Assembly: GCA_019753105.1 (NCBI GenBank)
Contig: JAIELJ010000005.1
Span: 1 to 64,000 of the forward strand
Source: Hyphomonadaceae bacterium
GTDB taxonomy: Bacteria; Pseudomonadota; Alphaproteobacteria; Caulobacterales; Aquidulcibacteraceae
Length of the DNA: 64,000 nucleotides
Direction of reading: 5' to 3'
In this document: piece by piece, positions 14,446 through 26,478 of the stretch
Numbering within the stretch: position 1 is the stretch's first letter
Layout: each line of letters starts with the position of its first letter
The notes under the pieces: generated by a model
Databases searched by the model: none
Seen by the model: only the letters and a program-made list of their open reading frames with translations
Told to the model about the DNA's origin: nothing
Translations under genes and position numbers: made by a program

Positions 14446-14658
14446 ATGGAAATAACGATGCGCTTGGTTCTGAAAACTGGCTCCTACTCGATCATGCACC
14501 TCGTGGTCGCGATCGCGGTCACCTACGCCATCACCCAAGACTGGCGCGCCGCCCTGGCTGTCGGCCTGATCGAGCCGGCCGTACAGACGGTTGCTTACGT
14601 CCTGCACGATCGCTTCTGGGCAAGGTTGGAGCGGAGGAAGGAAGCTTCGGCGACCTAA
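14446..14658 (+). CDS. DUF2061-type small membrane protein
   Basis: RLVLKTGSYSIMHLVVAIAVTYAITQDWRAALAVGLIEPAVQTVAYVLHDRFWARL; alternative start ATG 14458. Confidence 0.85.
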   Translation: MEITMRLVLKTGSYSIMHLVVAIAVTYAITQDWRAALAVGLIEPAVQTVAYVLHDRFWARLERRKEASAT

Positions 14659-14724
14659 CGCCTACCCGCCCTGGTTGCGGACTTATCCACATAGGTTAAG
14701 GTTCGTTAACTTGCGAGGGTGGGG

Positions 14725-15573
14725 ATGGTCGAGTTTTGGGGCAGCAGCCAAGAACTGGTTCGGGACTACGCTTGGATCGCACGCATCGTCGCGCTAGCCG
14801 CATTTATTCTCTTGATGGTGATGGTGGTCGCGCTGCTTTACAGTGGCGAGGTTCAAAATAGCGAGAAGGGGCCAATCTCTTTGGTCGCCAAATCCACGCT
14901 CAATGACCAAGCTTTCCAAGCTATAGACCCGATCATCACGAACAATCTCGATGGCAAGAAGGCTTATTGCACCTTCTACCTATCTTATCTCGATCGAAAT
15001 CAACGTCCGAGGAAAAAGCGTCTCCATCGCGCGCGGTTCGAGTTCAAAAAGCTCAATCGAAGCCCGAGCCGAGAGGAGGCTTCGACACTGGTGGGTTACT
15101 GGAATCCTCCCCGCCATGAGGAATTGCAGAATGTCCTCGAGCGCGTTGGCATAGTCCCGGACGCGCCGAATCTGTTTGCCGAGCAAGGCGAATTACAGCC
15201 GGGCACGCGCTCGCATATTGACCAGTACTTCTCACGAGAAATCGCTGAGACTCGGACCGTTGCAGTGTCCAACTCCACGCTCGCCGCGATAGGCGCGGCT
15301 CAAGCAAAGTTCCTCAGGGAGGAGTTCGCCAAAATCGAACGCATCCCTCGCGATAAGAATGGTGTTCGCCGGCTTGAGGGCAAAGCCGTCTATAACAGCC
15401 TTCCGAACCTGAGTGAGGATGGGCACTATTTTGTCGAGATGAAGTTCGACATCAATCCTGTCTTTGTGCTCACAGACCATCCAGACGGGCAAGTGAAGAC
15501 GACGGCATGGTTGACCGTGCTAACTAGTCTTTTCGCGATGTTCATGCAGGTGATCTACAACGGCTTCGGGTAG
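14725..15573 (+). CDS. Uncharacterised membrane-anchored protein, predicted TM at both termini
   Basis: 282 aa; N-terminal hydrophobic segment IVALAAFILLMVMVVALLY, C-terminal WLTVLTSLFAMFMQVIYNGFG, hydrophilic domain between; no family recognised. Confidence 0.7.
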   Translation: MVEFWGSSQELVRDYAWIARIVALAAFILLMVMVVALLYSGEVQNSEKGPISLVAKSTLNDQAFQAIDPIITNNLDGKKAYCTFYLSYLDRNQRPRKKRLHRARFEFKKLNRSPSREEASTLVGYWNPPRHEELQNVLERVGIVPDAPNLFAEQGELQPGTRSHIDQYFSREIAETRTVAVSNSTLAAIGAAQAKFLREEFAKIERIPRDKNGVRRLEGKAVYNSLPNLSEDGHYFVEMKFDINPVFVLTDHPDGQVKTTAWLTVLTSLFAMFMQVIYNGFG

Positions 15574-15574
15574 C

Positions 15575-16207
15575 TCAGCTCTTTTGCGCCGCCGCGACCA
15601 GCGCGTCATCGATCTCGCGCGCACGCACAGCAGCAGGGCGCGCAGAAATCCGCGCCACATAAGCTTCAAACGCCGGCCGCTTATCGAGCGTGCCGAACTG
15701 CAAGCCCCAGCCGATTTGCGCGCCAAGATACACATCAGCCGCGCTAAAGCGATCGCCGAGCAAATAGTCGCGGCCCGCCAGCGCTTTCTCGAGCGTCTCG
15801 ATCACTTGCTCGCGCGAGCCATAGCCGACCATGCCGCGCTTTTCGTCCGGAACGTTGACGCCAAGCGCCGTGTTCGACGCCATCGCTTCAACCGGGCCCG
15901 CGCCATAAAACATCCAGCGATAATAGGCGCCGCGCTCCTTCGATCCGATCGCCGGCGCAAGGCCCGCTTGCGGAAACGCGTCTGCCAGATAAGCGCAAAC
16001 GGCAGCGCACTCGGTGATCACCGTGTCCCCATGTTTGATCGCAGGCACTTTGCCCATCGGATTGATCGCGAGATATTCCGGCGCCTTCATCGTCGTGCCG
16101 TAGTCGAGCACGACGGTTTCGTACGGCTGGCCGATCTCTTCCAGCATCCAGCGCGCGATGCGTCCGCGCGACATCGGATTGGTGTAGAATGTGAGCGTAT
16201 CGGCCAT
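15575..16207 (-). CDS. Glutathione S-transferase family protein
   Basis: MADTLTFYTNPMSRGRIARWMLEEIGQPYE ... INPMGKVPAIKHGDTVITECAAVCAYLAD; ORF track start at 16618 is too long, overlaps the arsC-like gene. Confidence 0.93.
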   Translation of the reverse strand: MADTLTFYTNPMSRGRIARWMLEEIGQPYETVVLDYGTTMKAPEYLAINPMGKVPAIKHGDTVITECAAVCAYLADAFPQAGLAPAIGSKERGAYYRWMFYGAGPVEAMASNTALGVNVPDEKRGMVGYGSREQVIETLEKALAGRDYLLGDRFSAADVYLGAQIGWGLQFGTLDKRPAFEAYVARISARPAAVRAREIDDALVAAAQKS

Positions 16208-18325: not shown

Positions 18326-18961
18326 TTAAGCTCCGGGATACATGTGAAAGAGCGGCTCGGATTCTTTCACAGCGCGTTGGAAGGAGGGGCGGGCATTCAG
18401 GCGTTGAAGATAAGCGGCAATCCGCGGGAAGGCGCCATCGAGCGGCGCGTTACGCGTCGCGTACCAAAGCGCCGGCGCAGCCGAGCAGTCTGCGAGCGTG
18501 AAGCTGTCGCCAGCGATAAAACCGTCATCCCGCAACTGCGCTTCGATCACGCTATAGATGCCGCGCACGATGCGCTTGGCCTCTTCGACGCCATACGAAT
18601 CGCGCTGATCAGCCGGGCGGATGTTGTCGACGACGATCTTGGACATCGTCACATTCAGATGATCGAACACCCGGTCCCAGCGCCGAACCTCAAGCGCTGT
18701 ATCGAAGTCCTTCGGCACAAAGCGCGTGGGGCCCGGATAGTATGCGTCGAGATATTCGATGATCACCGAAGTCTCAGTGATCATCGCATCGCGATCGCTA
18801 TCGAGCAGGATCGGAAACTTGCCCATCGGCCACTTGGCGATGAAGTCGGCATAGGTGTTTTGATCCACCGTGATCAAATCGAACGGCGTGGCGTTTTCGT
18901 AGAGCGCGATCAGCACCTTCCAAGTGAAGGAAGAAATCGGGTGTCCGTAGAGCGTGAGCAT
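18326..18961 (-). CDS. Glutathione S-transferase family protein
   Basis: 211 aa; LTLYGHPISSFTWKVLIALYENATPFDLI ... WPMGKFPILLDSDRDAMITETSVIIEYLD. Confidence 0.93.
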   Translation of the reverse strand: MLTLYGHPISSFTWKVLIALYENATPFDLITVDQNTYADFIAKWPMGKFPILLDSDRDAMITETSVIIEYLDAYYPGPTRFVPKDFDTALEVRRWDRVFDHLNVTMSKIVVDNIRPADQRDSYGVEEAKRIVRGIYSVIEAQLRDDGFIAGDSFTLADCSAAPALWYATRNAPLDGAFPRIAAYLQRLNARPSFQRAVKESEPLFHMYPGA

Positions 18962-19293
18962 TAATCGTCTTTCGTTTCATCGAGAAATTGGCCGAGGCGA
19001 TCGAGGCGGCGTTCCCAAAGCGCGCGTCGTTCGGCGATCCAGTGTTCGGCTTGGGAGAGAACCTTCGGATCAATCTTGCAGGTGCGCGTGCGGCCGACCT
19101 TTTCTGAGATCACCAGCCCGGACGCTTCCAGCACAGCCAGGTGCTGCATCACCCCCGGTAAGCTCATCGCCAGCGGCTTGGCCAGTTCGCTGACCGTCGC
19201 CGGGCCTTGAACCAGCCGGTCCACCATGGCGCGGCGGCTAGGGTCGGCGAGGGCCTGGAAGGCCAGATCGAGGATCGCGTCCTGTCTGAACAT
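18961..19293 (-). CDS. ArsR-family (metalloregulator-like) transcriptional regulator
   Basis: MFRQDAILDLAFQALADPSRRAMVDRLVQGPATVSELAKPLAMSLPGVMQHLAVLEASGLV; TAATG stop/start overlap with the downstream GST gene. Confidence 0.92.
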   Translation of the reverse strand: MFRQDAILDLAFQALADPSRRAMVDRLVQGPATVSELAKPLAMSLPGVMQHLAVLEASGLVISEKVGRTRTCKIDPKVLSQAEHWIAERRALWERRLDRLGQFLDETKDD

Positions 19294-19319
19294 AACACTT
19301 AAGTAGATGCTTAAGTGTT
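19294..19319 (-). promoter_or_regulatory. Operator-like perfect inverted repeat immediately upstream of ArsR gene
   Basis: AACACTTAAG-TAGATG-CTTAAGTGTT: 10-bp perfect arms, 6-bp spacer, abuts the ATG (cat at 19291-19293). Confidence 0.85.
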
Positions 19320-19388
19320 CATTGGCAAGTCGCGCATCCAAAACGCCTCGCGGCGGCTGCATACTTCCCGAAACTGGAGGCGAGTCTG

Positions 19389-19790
19389 ATGATTTCGGGC
19401 GGTATGGAACGCTGGATGGTGGCGTTGTTCATCTTTGGCGCGGTTGCGGTGTCGATGCTCGCTGCCGGGTGGGCGCAGTATCTTGAGCACCAGCGCCGCA
19501 AGCAGGCGATGGATGTCATCAAGGCCGCCATAGAGGCGGGCAGAGAAGCGCCGCCGATCGTTTACGAGCAGCTCGCCAAGGCAGGACAATCGAAGCCGCC
19601 CTGGGGCGAAGTCGTCGTGTTCACCGCGCTTAGCTTTGGCTTCTGGATCGGGTTCGCGAATGCCGAGGGCGAGCAGCGCACGGGCTTCATGGTGGTGGCC
19701 GCGACTATGACGTTGACTGCGATTGGTTGCCTGGCGCTCGCGATCATGCGTCCCGATCGCGGCGGCGGCAAAGACGATGAGTCCGCATGA
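19389..19790 (+). CDS. Small membrane protein (DUF6249-like), module copy 1
   Basis: 133 aa, three hydrophobic segments; overlaps following sigma factor gene; paralogous layout to 20692-21078. Confidence 0.75.
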   Translation: MISGGMERWMVALFIFGAVAVSMLAAGWAQYLEHQRRKQAMDVIKAAIEAGREAPPIVYEQLAKAGQSKPPWGEVVVFTALSFGFWIGFANAEGEQRTGFMVVAATMTLTAIGCLALAIMRPDRGGGKDDESA

Positions 19791-20307
19791 AGAAGCGCGT
19801 CTCATCGCCGCCGCGCGCCGGGGAGACAGCCGGGCGTTCGCAGCGTTGGTGGACGCGCACCAGCAGGCCGTGCGCGGCTTTTTTCGACGTTTTGCCGGGC
19901 ATTGGGCTGAAGCGGACGATATCGCGCAGGAAGCGTTCGTGACCGCGTGGAGCAAGCTTTCGCGCTTTGAGGGGCGATCGAGTTTTCGCTCTTGGGTGTG
20001 CGGCATCGGCTATCGCATCGCGCGTGACGCGCGGCGCGCACACGGACGCGGCGCCGTGCGCGACAATGACTGGGCGAGCGTGCACGACGATCGCGACGCC
20101 GCCGCGCCGCTCGAAGATCGCATCGCGCTCGCCAAGGCGATGGCAGAATTACCTGACGATCAGCGGGCCGCGGTGGCGCTCTGTTTGGGTGAGGGCTTTT
20201 CGCACACCGAAGCAGCTGCAATCCTGGCGCTGCCGCTTGGCACGGTTAAATCTCATGTGACCCGTGGCCGTGAGCGATTACTCTCGCGCCTTCGTGGAGA
20301 CGATTAA
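19777..20307 (+). CDS. ECF-type RNA polymerase sigma factor, module copy 1
   Basis: MSPHEEARLIAAARRGDSRAFAALVDAHQQAVRGFFRRF..AEADDIAQEAFVTAWSKL (sigma2) and DQRAAVALCLGEGFSHTEAAAILALPLGTVKSHVTRGRERLL (sigma4). Confidence 0.93.
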   Translation: MSPHEEARLIAAARRGDSRAFAALVDAHQQAVRGFFRRFAGHWAEADDIAQEAFVTAWSKLSRFEGRSSFRSWVCGIGYRIARDARRAHGRGAVRDNDWASVHDDRDAAAPLEDRIALAKAMAELPDDQRAAVALCLGEGFSHTEAAAILALPLGTVKSHVTRGRERLLSRLRGDD

Positions 20308-20612
20308 TGGACGATGAAGCCCGTCTCGCGCGCGCCTTGGGCGCGCCGGCAGCGCCGAAGCGCGACGCCGCCTTCACGCTCGGGGTCATGCGCGAGGCCG
20401 AGCGCCAACGCTTCCGGCGCGCCTGGCTGCTCAGCCTGTTGCGGACCGCTGGCGTGGCCGCCGCGGGGGCGGCGCTCGCTGTTCCGCTTATGGGCTGGGC
20501 GCCCGGGAACCTGGCCGCCCTCCAGAATGGCCTGCTGACCGCCGGTTCCTTACTGGCGCTGGTGTCGTTTGCCCGGATCATGTCACAACGGCTTTCGATA
20601 GCCGCCCGCTGA
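20307..20612 (+). CDS. Small membrane protein, putative anti-sigma factor, module copy 1
   Basis: 101 aa, start overlaps sigma factor stop (TAATG); cytosolic N-terminus then two hydrophobic segments. Confidence 0.7.
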   Translation: MDDEARLARALGAPAAPKRDAAFTLGVMREAERQRFRRAWLLSLLRTAGVAAAGAALAVPLMGWAPGNLAALQNGLLTAGSLLALVSFARIMSQRLSIAAR

Positions 20613-20691
20613 GCACGTGCATCCAAAGCCTCCGGCCCGGGCATCTATGACGTAAATGGGGCATGAGACCCCGGGCTATGGAGAGCAAATT

Positions 20692-21078
20692 ATGGGTGCC
20701 GATGTCTTTGTGCCCTTTGTGTTTTTTGGGTTTTTGGCGGCCGTTATTCTGGTCCCGATCTGGCTGAAGGAACGGACCAAACAGTCTGCTCACCAGCTTT
20801 TGTCGCAGGCTCTGGAGAAGGGCCAACAGCTCGATCCGGCGCTGATGCGCCAGCTGACCGAGGGTCAAAAGCAGCAGCAGGACCGGCCACGCCGCACCTT
20901 GGGCAGTGGCGTCGTGCTCCTGGCGCTGGCGATCGGTTTCGTCGCCGCGAACTTCCTGGATGGCGGTGACTTCACCGGCGGCGCTCTGCTCACGGCGGCG
21001 GTGATCCTGGGGTCTTTGGGGGCGGCTTTCATCCTGCTCGCAATCGTGGATTATGCGTCCAAGAAGAAGGACCAGTGA
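20692..21078 (+). CDS. Small membrane protein (DUF6249-like), module copy 2
   Basis: MGADVFVPFVFFGFLAAVILVPIWLKERTKQSAHQLLSQALEKGQQLDPALMRQLTEGQKQQQ.. three hydrophobic segments. Confidence 0.78.
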   Translation: MGADVFVPFVFFGFLAAVILVPIWLKERTKQSAHQLLSQALEKGQQLDPALMRQLTEGQKQQQDRPRRTLGSGVVLLALAIGFVAANFLDGGDFTGGALLTAAVILGSLGAAFILLAIVDYASKKKDQ

Positions 21079-21088
21079 GTGGTAATCG

Positions 21089-21646
21089 GTGGCCGCGCGG
21101 GGGTTCCTCAATCTGGCTCAGGCCACAGAAGCCGCGCTGATTATCGCGGCCCAGGCCAGGGATCAGGCGGCTTTCGGGGAACTCGTAAAGCGCCGGCAAG
21201 GTTGGGCGCGTGCGCTGCTCAGGCGAATGTGTTCGAGCCACGCCGAAGCTGATGATCTCGCTCAAGACGCGTTCATCAAGGCGTGGGAAAGATTGACGGA
21301 CCTGGAAACACCGGCAGCGTTCCCGGGTTGGTTTAGGAGAATTGCAGTAACGACTTTTCTGATGGCCAAACGGAAGCAGAAGGCGATCTTCGAGGAGATC
21401 GACGATGCTTCCCCGATCGCAGCCGAGGGGAGCACCCCGGAAGCCGCGGCCGGCGCCAAGATTGACCTGGAAAAGGCTCTTGCGATGCTTTCAGATGCTG
21501 AGAGACTGTGTGTGACGTTGAACCACGGAGAAGGGCTCAGTCACTCTGAAATTGTAGAAATCACGGGTCTTCCCCTCGGCACCGTGAAATCACACGTACT
21601 AAGGGGGACCGAGAAACTGAAACGGCTATTGGAACCGGCGACATGA
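21089..21646 (+). CDS. ECF-type RNA polymerase sigma factor, module copy 2
   Basis: AALIIAAQARDQAAFGELVKRRQGWARALLRRMCSSHAEADDLAQDAFIKAWERL and LSDAERLCVTLNHGEGLSHSEIVEITGLPLGTVKSHVLRGTEKLKRLL. Confidence 0.93.
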   Translation: MAARGFLNLAQATEAALIIAAQARDQAAFGELVKRRQGWARALLRRMCSSHAEADDLAQDAFIKAWERLTDLETPAAFPGWFRRIAVTTFLMAKRKQKAIFEEIDDASPIAAEGSTPEAAAGAKIDLEKALAMLSDAERLCVTLNHGEGLSHSEIVEITGLPLGTVKSHVLRGTEKLKRLLEPAT

Positions 21647-22032
21647 ACGACTTTGACGCTCTTCTGAAGCGCTCCTTCGCGGAGGCCCCCGAACCAGCCG
21701 ATGACGGCTTTTCGGTGCAGATTAGTCGCGCCGTCGCTCATCGCGAGAAAACGGCGAAGGTCCGCAATGCCGCCTACACAGTTGGCATGGCCGCCGCGGC
21801 CGCAGCGGTTTGCTACGGCGCCTACGGTTTGATGGGCTTGTACGGCCAGGAAGTTCTGGCCACGGCCGGCTTGGAAGTGGCGCGCGTCCATGGTGCGCTG
21901 AGCGGCGCCCCGTCCGTGGGCGGCGCAGCCCAAGGCATGCTTCAGTCATTCGGCGCAGGCCTGACCCAGATGCTGCTTGTGTTCGGCGCGCTGGCTGGCG
22001 GCGCTGTGGCGTATCGCGCCGCTCAGGACTAA
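21643..22032 (+). CDS. Small membrane protein, putative anti-sigma factor, module copy 2
   Basis: 129 aa, ATGA overlap with sigma factor stop, two hydrophobic segments. Confidence 0.7.
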   Translation: MNDFDALLKRSFAEAPEPADDGFSVQISRAVAHREKTAKVRNAAYTVGMAAAAAAVCYGAYGLMGLYGQEVLATAGLEVARVHGALSGAPSVGGAAQGMLQSFGAGLTQMLLVFGALAGGAVAYRAAQD

Positions 22033-22109: not shown

Positions 22110-22976
22110 ATGTCGCGCCATTCCGAAACTGTCCGCCGCCTTACTGCGCCCGATATTCGCGCGCGCAAAGGCGGGGAGCCGATCGTGTGCCTGACGGCCT
22201 ACACAGCGCCGATGGCGGAGCTTCTGGATCCGCACTGCGACTTGCTTCTGGTCGGCGATAGCGTCGGCATGGTGGTGCATGGCCTGCCCAACACTGTGGG
22301 TGTTTCGCTGGAAATGATGATCATGCACGGCCAGGCCGTTATGCGCGGCGCGCAGAAGGCGATGGTCGTCGTCGACATGCCGTTTGGCACGTATGAGTCG
22401 AGCCCTGAGCTTGCCTTTGCCAACGCCACACGCGTGCTGAAGGAGACGGGCGCTGCGGCCGTGAAGGTCGAGGCCGGGGCCTATGTCGGCGACACGATCG
22501 CTTATCTTGTCCAGCGCGGCATTCCGGTGATGGGCCACGTGGGCCTGCGCCCACAGGCGGTCAACGTAGACGGGAAATTTCGCGCCAAGGGGCGAACGGA
22601 GGAGGAGCGCGCGATCGTGCTCGCGGAAGCCAAGGCCGCCGACGACGCCGGTGCCTTTGCGATCGTCATCGAGGGCGTCGACGAAGCACTCGCTCCCGAA
22701 ATAACCGCGGCCGTTTCAGCGCCGACAATCGGCATTGGCGCCTCGGCCCAATGCGACGGCCAAATCCTCGTCACCGACGACATGCTGGGTCTTTTCGACT
22801 GGACCCCCAAGTTCGTCCGCCGTTACGGGGACCTGAAGGGGGTTATCGACAAGGCCGTGGGCGAATATGCAGCCGATGTCCGGAACCGCCGTTTTCCTGC
22901 CGCAGCCGAAACCTATGCCCTCAGGGGCAATGCGGCGCGGCAGCCGCGCGTTGCCCGGGGCGACAAGCGCGGCTAG
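22110..22976 (+). CDS. panB: 3-methyl-2-oxobutanoate hydroxymethyltransferase
   Basis: 288 aa; [89 protein letters not shown]. Confidence 0.96.
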
Positions 22977-23042
22977 CTTGCGCGCAATTTTCAGGGGGGA
23001 CTGGGTCGCCACTCCAGGGCGGGCCCAGGTCAGGATTGATTT

Positions 23043-23756
23043 GTGACCAACGATACCGACAGCTTTGTCCACGAAGTCGATGAGAGCCTGCGTCAGGATC
23101 GCATCACGACATTCTTGCGCCAGTGGGGGGTCTTCATCCTCGCCGGCTTTGTCGCGATCATCCTCGCGGTGGTCGCCTGGCAAGTGTGGCGCGCCTATAG
23201 CGTCGACCAAGCGCGCAACGCGGCGGAGGCCTACGCCGCCGCGCAAACATTAGCGCGCGATGGCGATCTCGACGGCGCCAAGACGGCGTTTGAAGGTCTA
23301 CGCGAAACCGGACCGCGCGTTTATCGCGTCATGGCGCACATGGAATTGGCCGCAGTGCTGCAGGCGCAAGGCGACCTTGAAGCGGCGCTCGCAGAATTCG
23401 ACGCCGCTGCCGAAAAAGCCAACGATCCGATCATGCGCGTGAGCGCACAAATGCGCGCCGCCTACATCGCCGCCGACACCGCCGACTTCGACACGCTGCA
23501 AACGCGTCTGACGCCGATCATCGAGTCCGAGTCGCGCTTCTCATATCTCGCGCGCGAGCTGCTCGCGATGGAAGCGTGGGAAGCCGGCCAAAACGATCTC
23601 GCACGCGATACGCTTGAAGCGCTGACACTCGCATTCGACGCGCCGGAAGCCGTCCGTCAACGCGCGCAAATCGCGCTCTCAGTCATCGGCCCAGCGCCGC
23701 AAACCTCAGCGGACGGCGCAGCTGCACCCGCGCCCTCCGAAGGAGACAATCAATGA
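23043..23756 (+). CDS. YfgM-like tetratricopeptide repeat membrane protein
   Basis: 237 aa; single N-terminal TM then TPR-like helices; directly upstream of bamB-der as in many proteobacteria. Confidence 0.85.
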   Translation: MTNDTDSFVHEVDESLRQDRITTFLRQWGVFILAGFVAIILAVVAWQVWRAYSVDQARNAAEAYAAAQTLARDGDLDGAKTAFEGLRETGPRVYRVMAHMELAAVLQAQGDLEAALAEFDAAAEKANDPIMRVSAQMRAAYIAADTADFDTLQTRLTPIIESESRFSYLARELLAMEAWEAGQNDLARDTLEALTLAFDAPEAVRQRAQIALSVIGPAPQTSADGAAAPAPSEGDNQ

Positions 23757-25126
23757 CCCGTTTGGCAAAGAGCCGTTTGGGACCGATCGCCGTACTCGCT
23801 GCGGCCGCTGCTTTGTCGGCATGCTCGACTGTTGAGCGCGTCGGCAGTGCGCTGAACCCGTTCGATGGCGGCGGCGAAGCAGCACCCACAGCGCGTCCGG
23901 ATGACGGACGCGTGTCGGTGCTCGCGTTCGAACAAGAGCTGACACCCGATCCGGCGCTTGCAGCCACCCGCATCTCGGTGCCGGCTGCTGTAGATTTGGT
24001 CGAGTGGAGCCAACCCGGCGGTGTCGCAGACAACTCGCCGCCCAACTCGCGCGGCGCGGCCGTGCTTGAGCGCGCCTGGCGCGCTGATCTTGGCTCTGGC
24101 TCGACCAATCGCGTGCAAGTGGCGTCGCCGCCGGTGATCGCATCAGGCCGGCTCTACTTCCTCGACTCGGATCATCGTGTGATCGCGGTCGATGCAAGCA
24201 ACGGCCGCCGCTTGTGGAGCCAGCAGATCCGCTCCGAGGCGCGTGACCGCCACGCGCGCGGCGGCGGCGTCGCCGTCTCCGGCGGACGCGTGTTCGTGAC
24301 GACCGGTTATGGCTTCATGGTCGCGCTCGATGCGGCATCAGGCGAAGAAGTGTGGCGCACGGAAGCAAGCGCGCCGTTCCACTCGGCGCCGACAGTGGCC
24401 GGAGGCCGCGTCTACGCGATCACCAATGATAGCGAGTTGATCGCGTTCGACACGTCAGACGGCTCGGTGCAATGGAACCACCAGGCTATCGCCGAACCGG
24501 CACGCATCCTCTCTGCGCCGAGCGTTGCGGTCGCGAACGATTCAGTGATTGCGCCGTTCGCGTCAGGCGAACTCGTCGCTTTGCTCGCCGCCAATGGCCG
24601 GCGCTTGTGGAGCGACTCGGTCGCGCGTTCATCGAGCCTCACCTCGCTGTCGGCCATCAATGATATTGCCGGCCGTCCGGTCGTGCAGAATGGCGTCGTC
24701 TACGCCGCCAGCCATTCCGGCTTGATCGCCGCCATCGATCTGCGCAGCGGCAACCGCATCTGGGCGCGCAACTTCGCATCGACGCAAACGCCATGGATCG
24801 CTGGCGACGTGGTGTATGCCGTGAGCACGGATGGCGTGCTCGTCGCGCTCAATCGTGAAAGCGGCAACGCCTATTGGGTCCGCCAGCTGCGCCGCTTCGA
24901 GAACGAAGAGAATCGGAGCGGCCGCGTCGCTTGGCAGGGCCCGATCATGGTTGGCGGACGTCTGATCCTGGCCAACTCTGTCGGCGATGTGATCGCGGTG
25001 ACGCCTGAGAACGGCCAGACCGTCGCTGAAGCCGATGCCGGTGGTGCGGTGTTCATTCCGCCGGTCGTGGCGGGTGGCAACATCTATGTCGTGACCGACG
25101 AAGCTCGCCTCGTCGTGTTCAACTGA
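23753..25126 (+). CDS. bamB: Outer membrane assembly lipoprotein BamB-like (PQQ-like beta-propeller)
   Basis: Lipobox ALSACS; repeated WSQQIRSEARD / AVDASNGRRLW / ALNRESGNAYWVRQL propeller blades; between yfgM and der. Confidence 0.88.
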   Translation: MTRLAKSRLGPIAVLAAAAALSACSTVERVGSALNPFDGGGEAAPTARPDDGRVSVLAFEQELTPDPALAATRISVPAAVDLVEWSQPGGVADNSPPNSRGAAVLERAWRADLGSGSTNRVQVASPPVIASGRLYFLDSDHRVIAVDASNGRRLWSQQIRSEARDRHARGGGVAVSGGRVFVTTGYGFMVALDAASGEEVWRTEASAPFHSAPTVAGGRVYAITNDSELIAFDTSDGSVQWNHQAIAEPARILSAPSVAVANDSVIAPFASGELVALLAANGRRLWSDSVARSSSLTSLSAINDIAGRPVVQNGVVYAASHSGLIAAIDLRSGNRIWARNFASTQTPWIAGDVVYAVSTDGVLVALNRESGNAYWVRQLRRFENEENRSGRVAWQGPIMVGGRLILANSVGDVIAVTPENGQTVAEADAGGAVFIPPVVAGGNIYVVTDEARLVVFN

Positions 25127-25137
25127 TTGATGGCGCC

Positions 25138-26478
25138 ATGACGATCAAGCTCGCGATTGTCGGGCGCCCAAATGTCGGCAAGTCCACTTTGTTCAACCGC
25201 TTGCACGGCAAGAAGGTTGCGATCGTGGATGATACGCCCGGCGTCACGCGTGATCGACGCCAGGGCGCAGGGCGTCTTGGCGATCTCGACTTTACGCTGA
25301 TCGATACAGCAGGCTTCGAGGATGTGACGGACTCGTCGCTCGAGTCGCGCATGCGCGAGCAGACGGAAGTCGCGATCAATGAAGCGGACGTCATTCTCTT
25401 TCTGATTGACGCCCGCGTCGGCGTGACGCCGCTCGATGAAGCGTTCGCCGCTTTGCTGCGCCGTGCGGACAAACCCGTCGTGCTCGCAGCCAACAAGGCC
25501 GAGGGCCGGGCTGGCGATATCGGCATCAGCGAGGCGTACGCGCTGGGCCTCGGCGAGCCCATCGCGCTCTCGGCTGAGCATGGCGAGGGCATGAGCGAAC
25601 TCTACGCAGCGATCGCACCACACGCGCCCGTGCCCGGCGAAGCCAGCGCCGAGGCGCTGGATCGGCCGATCCAACTTGCGATCGTCGGCCGGCCAAACGC
25701 CGGCAAGTCCACCCTGATCAACGCGATGATCGGTGAGGATCGTCTGCTCGTCGGCCCTGAAGCCGGCATCACGCGCGACTCCATCGCCATCGATTGGAAC
25801 TGGAACGGCAAGCCCTACAAACTCGTCGACACAGCCGGCATGCGAAAGAAGGCGAAGGTCCAAGAGAAGCTCGAGCGTATGTCGGTGGGCGATAGCCTCC
25901 ATGCCATTCGCTTCGCCGACGTCTGCGTGTTGGTGATGGATTCTGAAGAAGCGTTCGAGAAGCAGGACATCGTCATCGCCGATCTGGTCGAGCGCGAAGG
26001 CCGTGCACTCGTCTTCGCGCTGGCCAAGTGGGACAAGATTGCGGACGCGCGTGCACATTTCGAAGAGATGACGCTGGTCGCGCGTGAGCGCGTTCCGCAG
26101 GCGCGCGGCGCGCCCATCGTAACGCTCGCAGCGCAGGCAGGCGTTGGACTTGATCGGCTGATGAAGGCTGTCGATCAGGCGCACACGGATTGGACCGCGC
26201 GTGTCAAAACCAAAGACCTGAACGAATGGCTCTACGAGACCATTCAGCGGCATCCTCCGCCGGCCGTCCGCGGTAAACGCATCAAGCCACGCTACCTCAC
26301 TCAGATCAAATCGCGCCCGCCAACCTTCGTGCTCATCTGCTCGCGGGCGGAAGACATGCCGGAGAGCTACAAACGCTATCTGGTGAACGGCTTGCGTGAC
26401 GCGTTCAATCTGCACGCCACGCCGATCCGGCTGGTAGTGAAGGCCGGCAAGAATCCCTACGCCGAAGGCGAAGGCTAG
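25138..26478 (+). CDS. der: GTPase Der (EngA)
   Basis: 446 aa; two G domains GRPNVGKSTLFNRL and GRPNAGKSTLINAMI, KH-like C-terminus. Confidence 0.97.
   Translation: MTIKLAIVGRPNVGKSTLFNRLHGKKVAIVDDTPGVTRDRRQGAGRLGDLDFTLIDTAGFEDVTDSSLESRMREQTEVAINEADVILFLIDARVGVTPLDEAFAALLRRADKPVVLAANKAEGRAGDIGISEAYALGLGEPIALSAEHGEGMSELYAAIAPHAPVPGEASAEALDRPIQLAIVGRPNAGKSTLINAMIGEDRLLVGPEAGITRDSIAIDWNWNGKPYKLVDTAGMRKKAKVQEKLERMSVGDSLHAIRFADVCVLVMDSEEAFEKQDIVIADLVEREGRALVFALAKWDKIADARAHFEEMTLVARERVPQARGAPIVTLAAQAGVGLDRLMKAVDQAHTDWTARVKTKDLNEWLYETIQRHPPPAVRGKRIKPRYLTQIKSRPPTFVLICSRAEDMPESYKRYLVNGLRDAFNLHATPIRLVVKAGKNPYAEGEG

Follow-up and report, generated by a model that had tools for sequence, protein, structure and literature searches.

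Two old, paralogous ECF sigma factor modules with DUF6249 membrane proteins and distinct predicted promoters in a Hyphomonadaceae bacterium

Results

The window analyzed here is the whole 64,000-nucleotide stretch at positions 1 to 64,000 of contig JAIELJ010000005.1 (assembly GCA_019753105.1). It carries two consecutive three-gene sets on the plus strand, and all six genes were confirmed at the coordinates and in the common order given by the original prediction. Each set encodes a DUF6249 membrane protein, an ECF sigma factor and a small protein with two transmembrane (TM) segments. Set 1 encodes a DUF6249 protein of 133 residues (19389..19790), a sigma factor of 176 residues (19777..20307) and a third protein, a putative membrane anti-sigma factor, of 101 residues (20307..20612). 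The corresponding products of set 2 have 128 residues (20692..21078), 185 residues (21089..21646, GTG start) and 129 residues (21643..22032). The three overlaps proposed earlier are also present: the ATG of sigma 1 at 19777 lies inside the end of the first DUF6249 gene (19790), the start of the set 1 third gene and the stop of sigma 1 have one base in common at 20307, and the sigma 2 and third genes of set 2 overlap by ATGA at 21643. The GTG start of sigma 2 lies 10 bp past the second DUF6249 gene. Set 2 is followed by panB, yfgM-like, bamB-like and der-like genes, named by resemblance (22110..26478, plus strand), which are conserved downstream neighbors of the module.

Both sigma factors contain Sigma70_r2 and Sigma70_r4_2 domains over the Pfam cut-off with no domain between them, which is the ECF domain make-up, and neither matches an NCBIfam equivalog. 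The DUF6249 protein of set 2 scores 36.2 bits against PF19762 (curated cut-off 33); that of set 1 scores 28.7 bits (E 1.3e-6), just under the cut-off, yet it spans the full profile. The two first proteins, for which a common layout had been proposed, both belong to DUF6249.

Upstream of set 1, and divergent from it, lies an ArsR-like gene (18961-19293, minus strand). Directly upstream of this gene is a perfect palindrome, AACACTTAAG-TAGATG-CTTAAGTGTT (19294-19319), which is conserved at the majority of the genus's set 1 loci and is probably the ArsR operator.

Homology between the sets, proposed gene for gene, holds for all three pairs. The sigma factors are 39% identical (E 6e-32) and the DUF6249 proteins 25% identical (E 8e-7). 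The third proteins fall short of significance by BLASTP (E 0.075); comparison of their profiles by hhalign, built from 14 set 2-type and 18 set 1-type relatives (the latter including the murG-murC and C6 copies described below), gives a probability of 97% and E 8e-11, with an alignment starting at residue 1. The resemblance suggested for these proteins is borne out by a common N-terminal motif, L/F-x-x-A ... D-x-x-F-x3-V, kept in 14 set 2 orthologs and followed by two hydrophobic stretches. Such a layout would be expected of a membrane anti-sigma factor whose cytoplasmic end is short. The LPLGTVKSHV block noted at the end of both sigma factors is real but carries no special evidence: it is the ordinary recognition helix of region 4.2, and all four sigma paralogs compared have it as LPLGTVKSHV or APIGTVKSHV.

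The tandem placement of the sets, in the same order and orientation, would suit a recent, lineage-specific duplication without special function. We rejected this explanation, to which we assign almost no probability, on the DNA comparison and the sigma tree. At the DNA level the sets share a 25-bp match and nothing more, indicating that the duplication is not recent. In a tree of 64 sigma factors, the set 1 sigmas of three families (this family, the Caulobacteraceae and the Maricaulaceae) form one clade (100/99), within which the sigmas of the mur copies nest, and the set 2 sigmas are placed elsewhere. Both clades have members from Caulobacter, Brevundimonas, Phenylobacterium, Maricaulis and Hyphobacterium. 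The block of panB, yfgM-like, bamB-like and der-like genes comes after the module, in the same order, in families f1 and f3 as well as in some members of f2 and f4, and two sigma genes occur in 26 of 80 named loci. Together, the tree, the conserved neighborhood and the two-sigma loci indicate that the pair is older than these families. Phylogeny, to which the original prediction had left the question of a lineage-specific duplication, therefore answers it in the negative: the sigma 1/sigma 2 split predates the Caulobacteraceae, the Maricaulaceae and this family. The pair of ECF modules is real, old and functionally coherent.

Of 200 genomes from the order, 163 contain DUF6249; among 385 genomes taken from the whole class it was detected in 18, and some of these 18 belong to the order itself. 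DUF6249 lies directly upstream of the sigma gene in all 78 named loci (among the 80) long enough to show it. Set 2 evolves slowly, with sigma 2 identities of up to 96% within the genus; set 1 evolves faster (81% within the genus) and is absent from several genomes. The present genome has five DUF6249 genes, two of them in the window. A third full DUF6249-sigma-third module lies between murG and murC (C4, about 14470-15800; L008:2971-4299), a position kept in 8/8 genomes having this copy, as far as the contigs extend. A fourth, on C6 (about 124670-125890; L007:3169-4393), has a sigma factor whose branch in the tree is long and isolated, and neither promoter described below was found directly upstream of it within two mismatches. 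The fifth DUF6249 gene is an orphan on C11 (L006:2880-4703), downstream of a histidine kinase gene and with a set 2-type promoter of its own; its product is 55% identical to DUF6249-2 and 19% to DUF6249-1.

Each set is preceded by a conserved promoter-like motif. Alignment of 25 set 2 upstream regions revealed an almost invariant TGCATCC-N16-GCATC, located at 20618..20645 (plus strand) and separated in the window from the start codon by 46 nt. Families f1, f2 and f4 have the same motif ahead of the module, as do Maricaulis, Hyphobacterium, Emcibacter, Chitinimonas and some gammaproteobacterial genomes. Set 1 has its own conserved motif, GCATCC-N15-GGCT(G/A)CA, found here as GCATCCAAAACGCCTCGCGGCGGCTGCA at 19334..19361 (plus strand; -35 GCATCC, -10 GGCTGCA). 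The two sets thus have the same -35 element and different -10 elements, each conserved, in two families: the Caulobacteraceae also show GCATC -35 elements, with a -10 of CGCCTCT for set 2 and, from few sequences only, GGCGACTA for set 1. The 46-nt set 2 leader (20646-20691, plus strand) contains a hairpin, GGGGC...GACCCC (20658..20672), that is kept in most orthologs and lies before a conserved ribosome site, CTATGGAG; GGGCTATGGAG follows the hairpin in nearly all of them. Translational control of set 2 by this hairpin is possible.

Region 4.2 of a sigma factor reads the -35 element, and regions 2.3-2.4 read the -10 element. Sigma 1 and sigma 2 are 66% identical in region 4.2 but 23% identical in regions 2.3-2.4, which matches the common -35 and the differing -10. 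Judged by this conservation, each sigma appears to read its own promoter, and cross-talk between the sets at the promoter level looks limited.

Sites of the set 2 motif were counted by pattern matching, as in all the regulon searches. There are 11 sites in this genome against 0 for a reversed control (14 against 1 with a relaxed motif), 59 against 3 in ten genomes of the genus, and 22 against 0 in ten more distant genomes, counts in which orthologous sites have a common history and are not independent events. The genes behind set 2-type sites include the module itself, Pfam-confirmed DUF2807 proteins, an S46 peptidase (preceded by a lipoprotein-like gene), a DUF2268/GldB-like protein, an ABC transporter ATPase and an outer membrane efflux protein. 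Beyond its own operon, sigma 2 probably governs a distinct group of cell-envelope genes.

This genome has three DUF2807 transcription units, each with the set 2 motif (the third at one mismatch). The motif is also present at 16/16 units examined in other genomes of the genus (at most one mismatch), where four additional DUF2807 genes come second in such pairs. Each scanned stretch spanned about 0.5-1 kb, and at a background of 0.07 sites per kb and strand fewer than 0.1 sites are expected in each. The link was also seen in two further genera of this family but is absent from the f2, f3 and g8 genomes tested, indicating that the output differs between lineages; in a Caulobacteraceae genome, the Caulobacteraceae-type promoter was not found at the DUF2807 genes. 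A profile search found no DUF2807 gene adjoining the module in the named loci. DUF2807 is the Toastrack domain, which is linked to envelope stress systems (PMC11237479).

Orphan DUF6249 genes carry a variant of the set 2 motif in 24 of 24 cases (23 at one mismatch, one at two). In every genome, the orphan therefore appears to be controlled by sigma 2, and DUF6249 is tied to the sigma circuit by regulation, beyond its position.

In this genome, reading frames of 30-34 codons, for example MSKFLCLAAALALFAPVAMATLNQAALIVA, lie behind three sigma 2-type sites. They belong to an unannotated family of hydrophobic 30-residue microproteins, present in 29 of 30 genomes of the genus, with 15 copies in this genome (C9:194179-194268, L345/L163; C9 at about 194575, L209; C10 at about 158230, L210; and about 12 other positions) and as many as 22 in relatives. 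Among the top-scoring matches, 16 of the 26 copies read have a set 2-type motif at most 130 nt upstream, and copies often stand in tandem about 130 bp apart. The first 20 residues resemble a signal peptide and the last ten, TLNQAALIVA, are near-invariant; we speculate that this end might be a secreted decapeptide. A further set 2-type promoter precedes a candidate sRNA of about 80 nt (C17:32133-32220, L212), on the strand opposite to a LytTR-like regulator gene. The site occurs in four genomes (counterparts L165, L185 and L188), each with a hairpin followed by the T-run of an intrinsic terminator within about 80 nt, and the candidate has no Rfam match.

The set 1 motif behaves differently from that of set 2. 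In ten genomes its strict form, which may miss further or weaker targets, gave 9 matches, 8 of them at set 1 itself, against 0 for the control. Because the motif is nearly confined to its own operon, set 1 is probably a self-amplifying input upstream of set 2. We found no terminator-like site on the plus strand in the 80 bp between the operons; transcription of set 1 could thus continue into set 2, and such read-through is plausible. These results bear on the possibility that the sets are functionally redundant copies reading the same promoters, as their gene order, their common -35 element and the similarity of region 4.2 might suggest. We consider redundancy very improbable, given that the -10 elements differ and are conserved in two families, that regions 2.3-2.4 have diverged to the extent described, that the set 1 motif hardly occurs outside its operon, and that separate clades have been kept for the age of the order.

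We now consider which membrane protein restrains the sigma factor. The third gene lies 3' of the sigma gene, mostly overlapping or touching it, and its product has about 40 residues ahead of the first TM segment; class I anti-sigma factors are defined by a recognizable domain of about 100 residues ahead of the TM segment, and no such domain is seen in the third proteins. In a weak model of the set 2 protein (pTM 0.34), a short helix and a linker are followed by a second helix that continues into the first TM segment. The third proteins have no Pfam family match at a meaningful level and no anti-sigma match in Pfam or NCBIfam, and their profiles, from both sets, retrieved neither CnrY nor any other relative at E <0.2 among solved chains. 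CnrY grips its sigma factor by two short helices, of which one binds sigma4 and the other sigma2 (PMC7406223). Set beside this grip, the modeled helix-linker-helix-TM arrangement makes a CnrY-like way of working plausible, and by this analogy a CnrY-like membrane anti-sigma factor is the most likely identity of the third protein.

The main anti-sigma factor could instead be DUF6249, with the third protein as an accessory membrane protein. DUF6249 carries a conserved cytoplasmic helix and is detected more widely than the third protein in distant loci, and its extra copy under apparent sigma 2 control would fit a feedback inhibitor. That orphan copy, however, has no adjoining sigma gene; it is the third gene, not DUF6249, that occupies the usual anti-sigma place downstream of the sigma gene; and the cytoplasmic end of the third protein holds its most conserved residues. 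We therefore regard this assignment as unlikely and favor the third protein as the anti-sigma factor. The DUF6249-2 model consists of three long helices (pTM 0.50) and has no structural relative at E <0.9; DUF6249 is most likely a co-regulated membrane partner of the putative switch.

Discussion

An ECF sigma factor with a membrane anti-sigma factor is a known kind of system; the DUF6249-linked variant, its promoters (TGCATCC-N16-GCATC included) and its regulon are undescribed in the literature searched, which was thin on subscription papers. The sigma factors may already have a published ECF group number. It is instructive to compare the locus with characterized systems. Solved relatives of sigma 2 include CnrH of the CnrH-CnrY pair of Cupriavidus metallidurans (PDB 4CXF), and the third protein may resemble CnrY, a class II anti-sigma factor, in its two short helices predicted before the first TM segment. 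Unlike CnrY, the third proteins have two hydrophobic stretches and an upstream DUF6249 partner, and they show no sequence match to CnrY.

RpoE of the Escherichia coli RpoE-RseA system is among the closest solved sigma factors, and control linked to the membrane is probable here too. The E. coli sigma E regulon comprises envelope targets, an sRNA included, and the predicted envelope targets here likewise include a candidate sRNA. In contrast to RpoE-RseA, no class I anti-sigma domain was found at this locus, the promoter is TGCATCC-N16-GCATC, and the operon has no RseB or protease gene. A third comparison is offered by Toastrack/DUF2807 systems (PSP and Lia partners), in that DUF2807 proteins are predicted outputs here. 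Toastrack gene neighborhoods with an operonically linked sigma factor have been described (PMC11237479). The link here differs in running through a common promoter, not an operon, and the locus has no PspA, PspC or LiaRS genes. Caulobacter SigT, SigU and SigV are ECF sigma factors from the same order as sigmas 1 and 2. SigV-type promoters are described as being of the GGAA type (PMC13171946), and SigV was rejected as the same system since its promoters are of another type.

Taken together, the locus likely represents two paralogous, separately autoregulated ECF switches, each with the third protein as anti-sigma factor and DUF6249 as partner, in which sigma 2 would command an envelope regulon and set 1 would provide a second input. 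We propose that the cytoplasmic N-terminus of the third protein, of roughly 40 residues, holds the sigma factor inactive, and that the co-transcribed DUF6249 protein (a TM segment, a cytoplasmic helix and two further TM segments) modulates sigma release or feedback. An envelope signal would free sigma 2, which would then act at promoters of the TGCATCC-N16-GCATC type to transcribe both its operon and the orphan DUF6249 gene, and would turn on DUF2807/Toastrack proteins, secreted peptidases and many of the hydrophobic 30-residue microproteins. Sigma 1 would recognize the same -35 with the other -10 (GGCTRCA), nearly exclusive to its own operon, and transcription running from set 1 into set 2 would give the same output a second input, set 1. 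More tentatively, and less probably than not, the locus could be a two-tier sigma cascade that has persisted for as long as the order has existed, in which paralogous modules with one -35 are insulated by their -10 elements: set 1 would activate only itself and, by read-through, set 2, and sigma 2 would then drive Toastrack proteins, a feedback copy of DUF6249, an sRNA and multicopy 30-residue peptides with a possibly secreted TLNQAALIVA end.

These results give a DUF6249-linked ECF family, widespread and extending beyond the Alphaproteobacteria, a predicted promoter, a putative anti-sigma factor and a predicted regulon, so that its function becomes testable. The paralogous sigma factors, apparently with a common -35 and separate -10 elements, would offer a clean case of duplicated sigma factors separating their targets, and the predicted regulon reveals a microprotein family, previously unannotated, that reaches 22 copies per genome.
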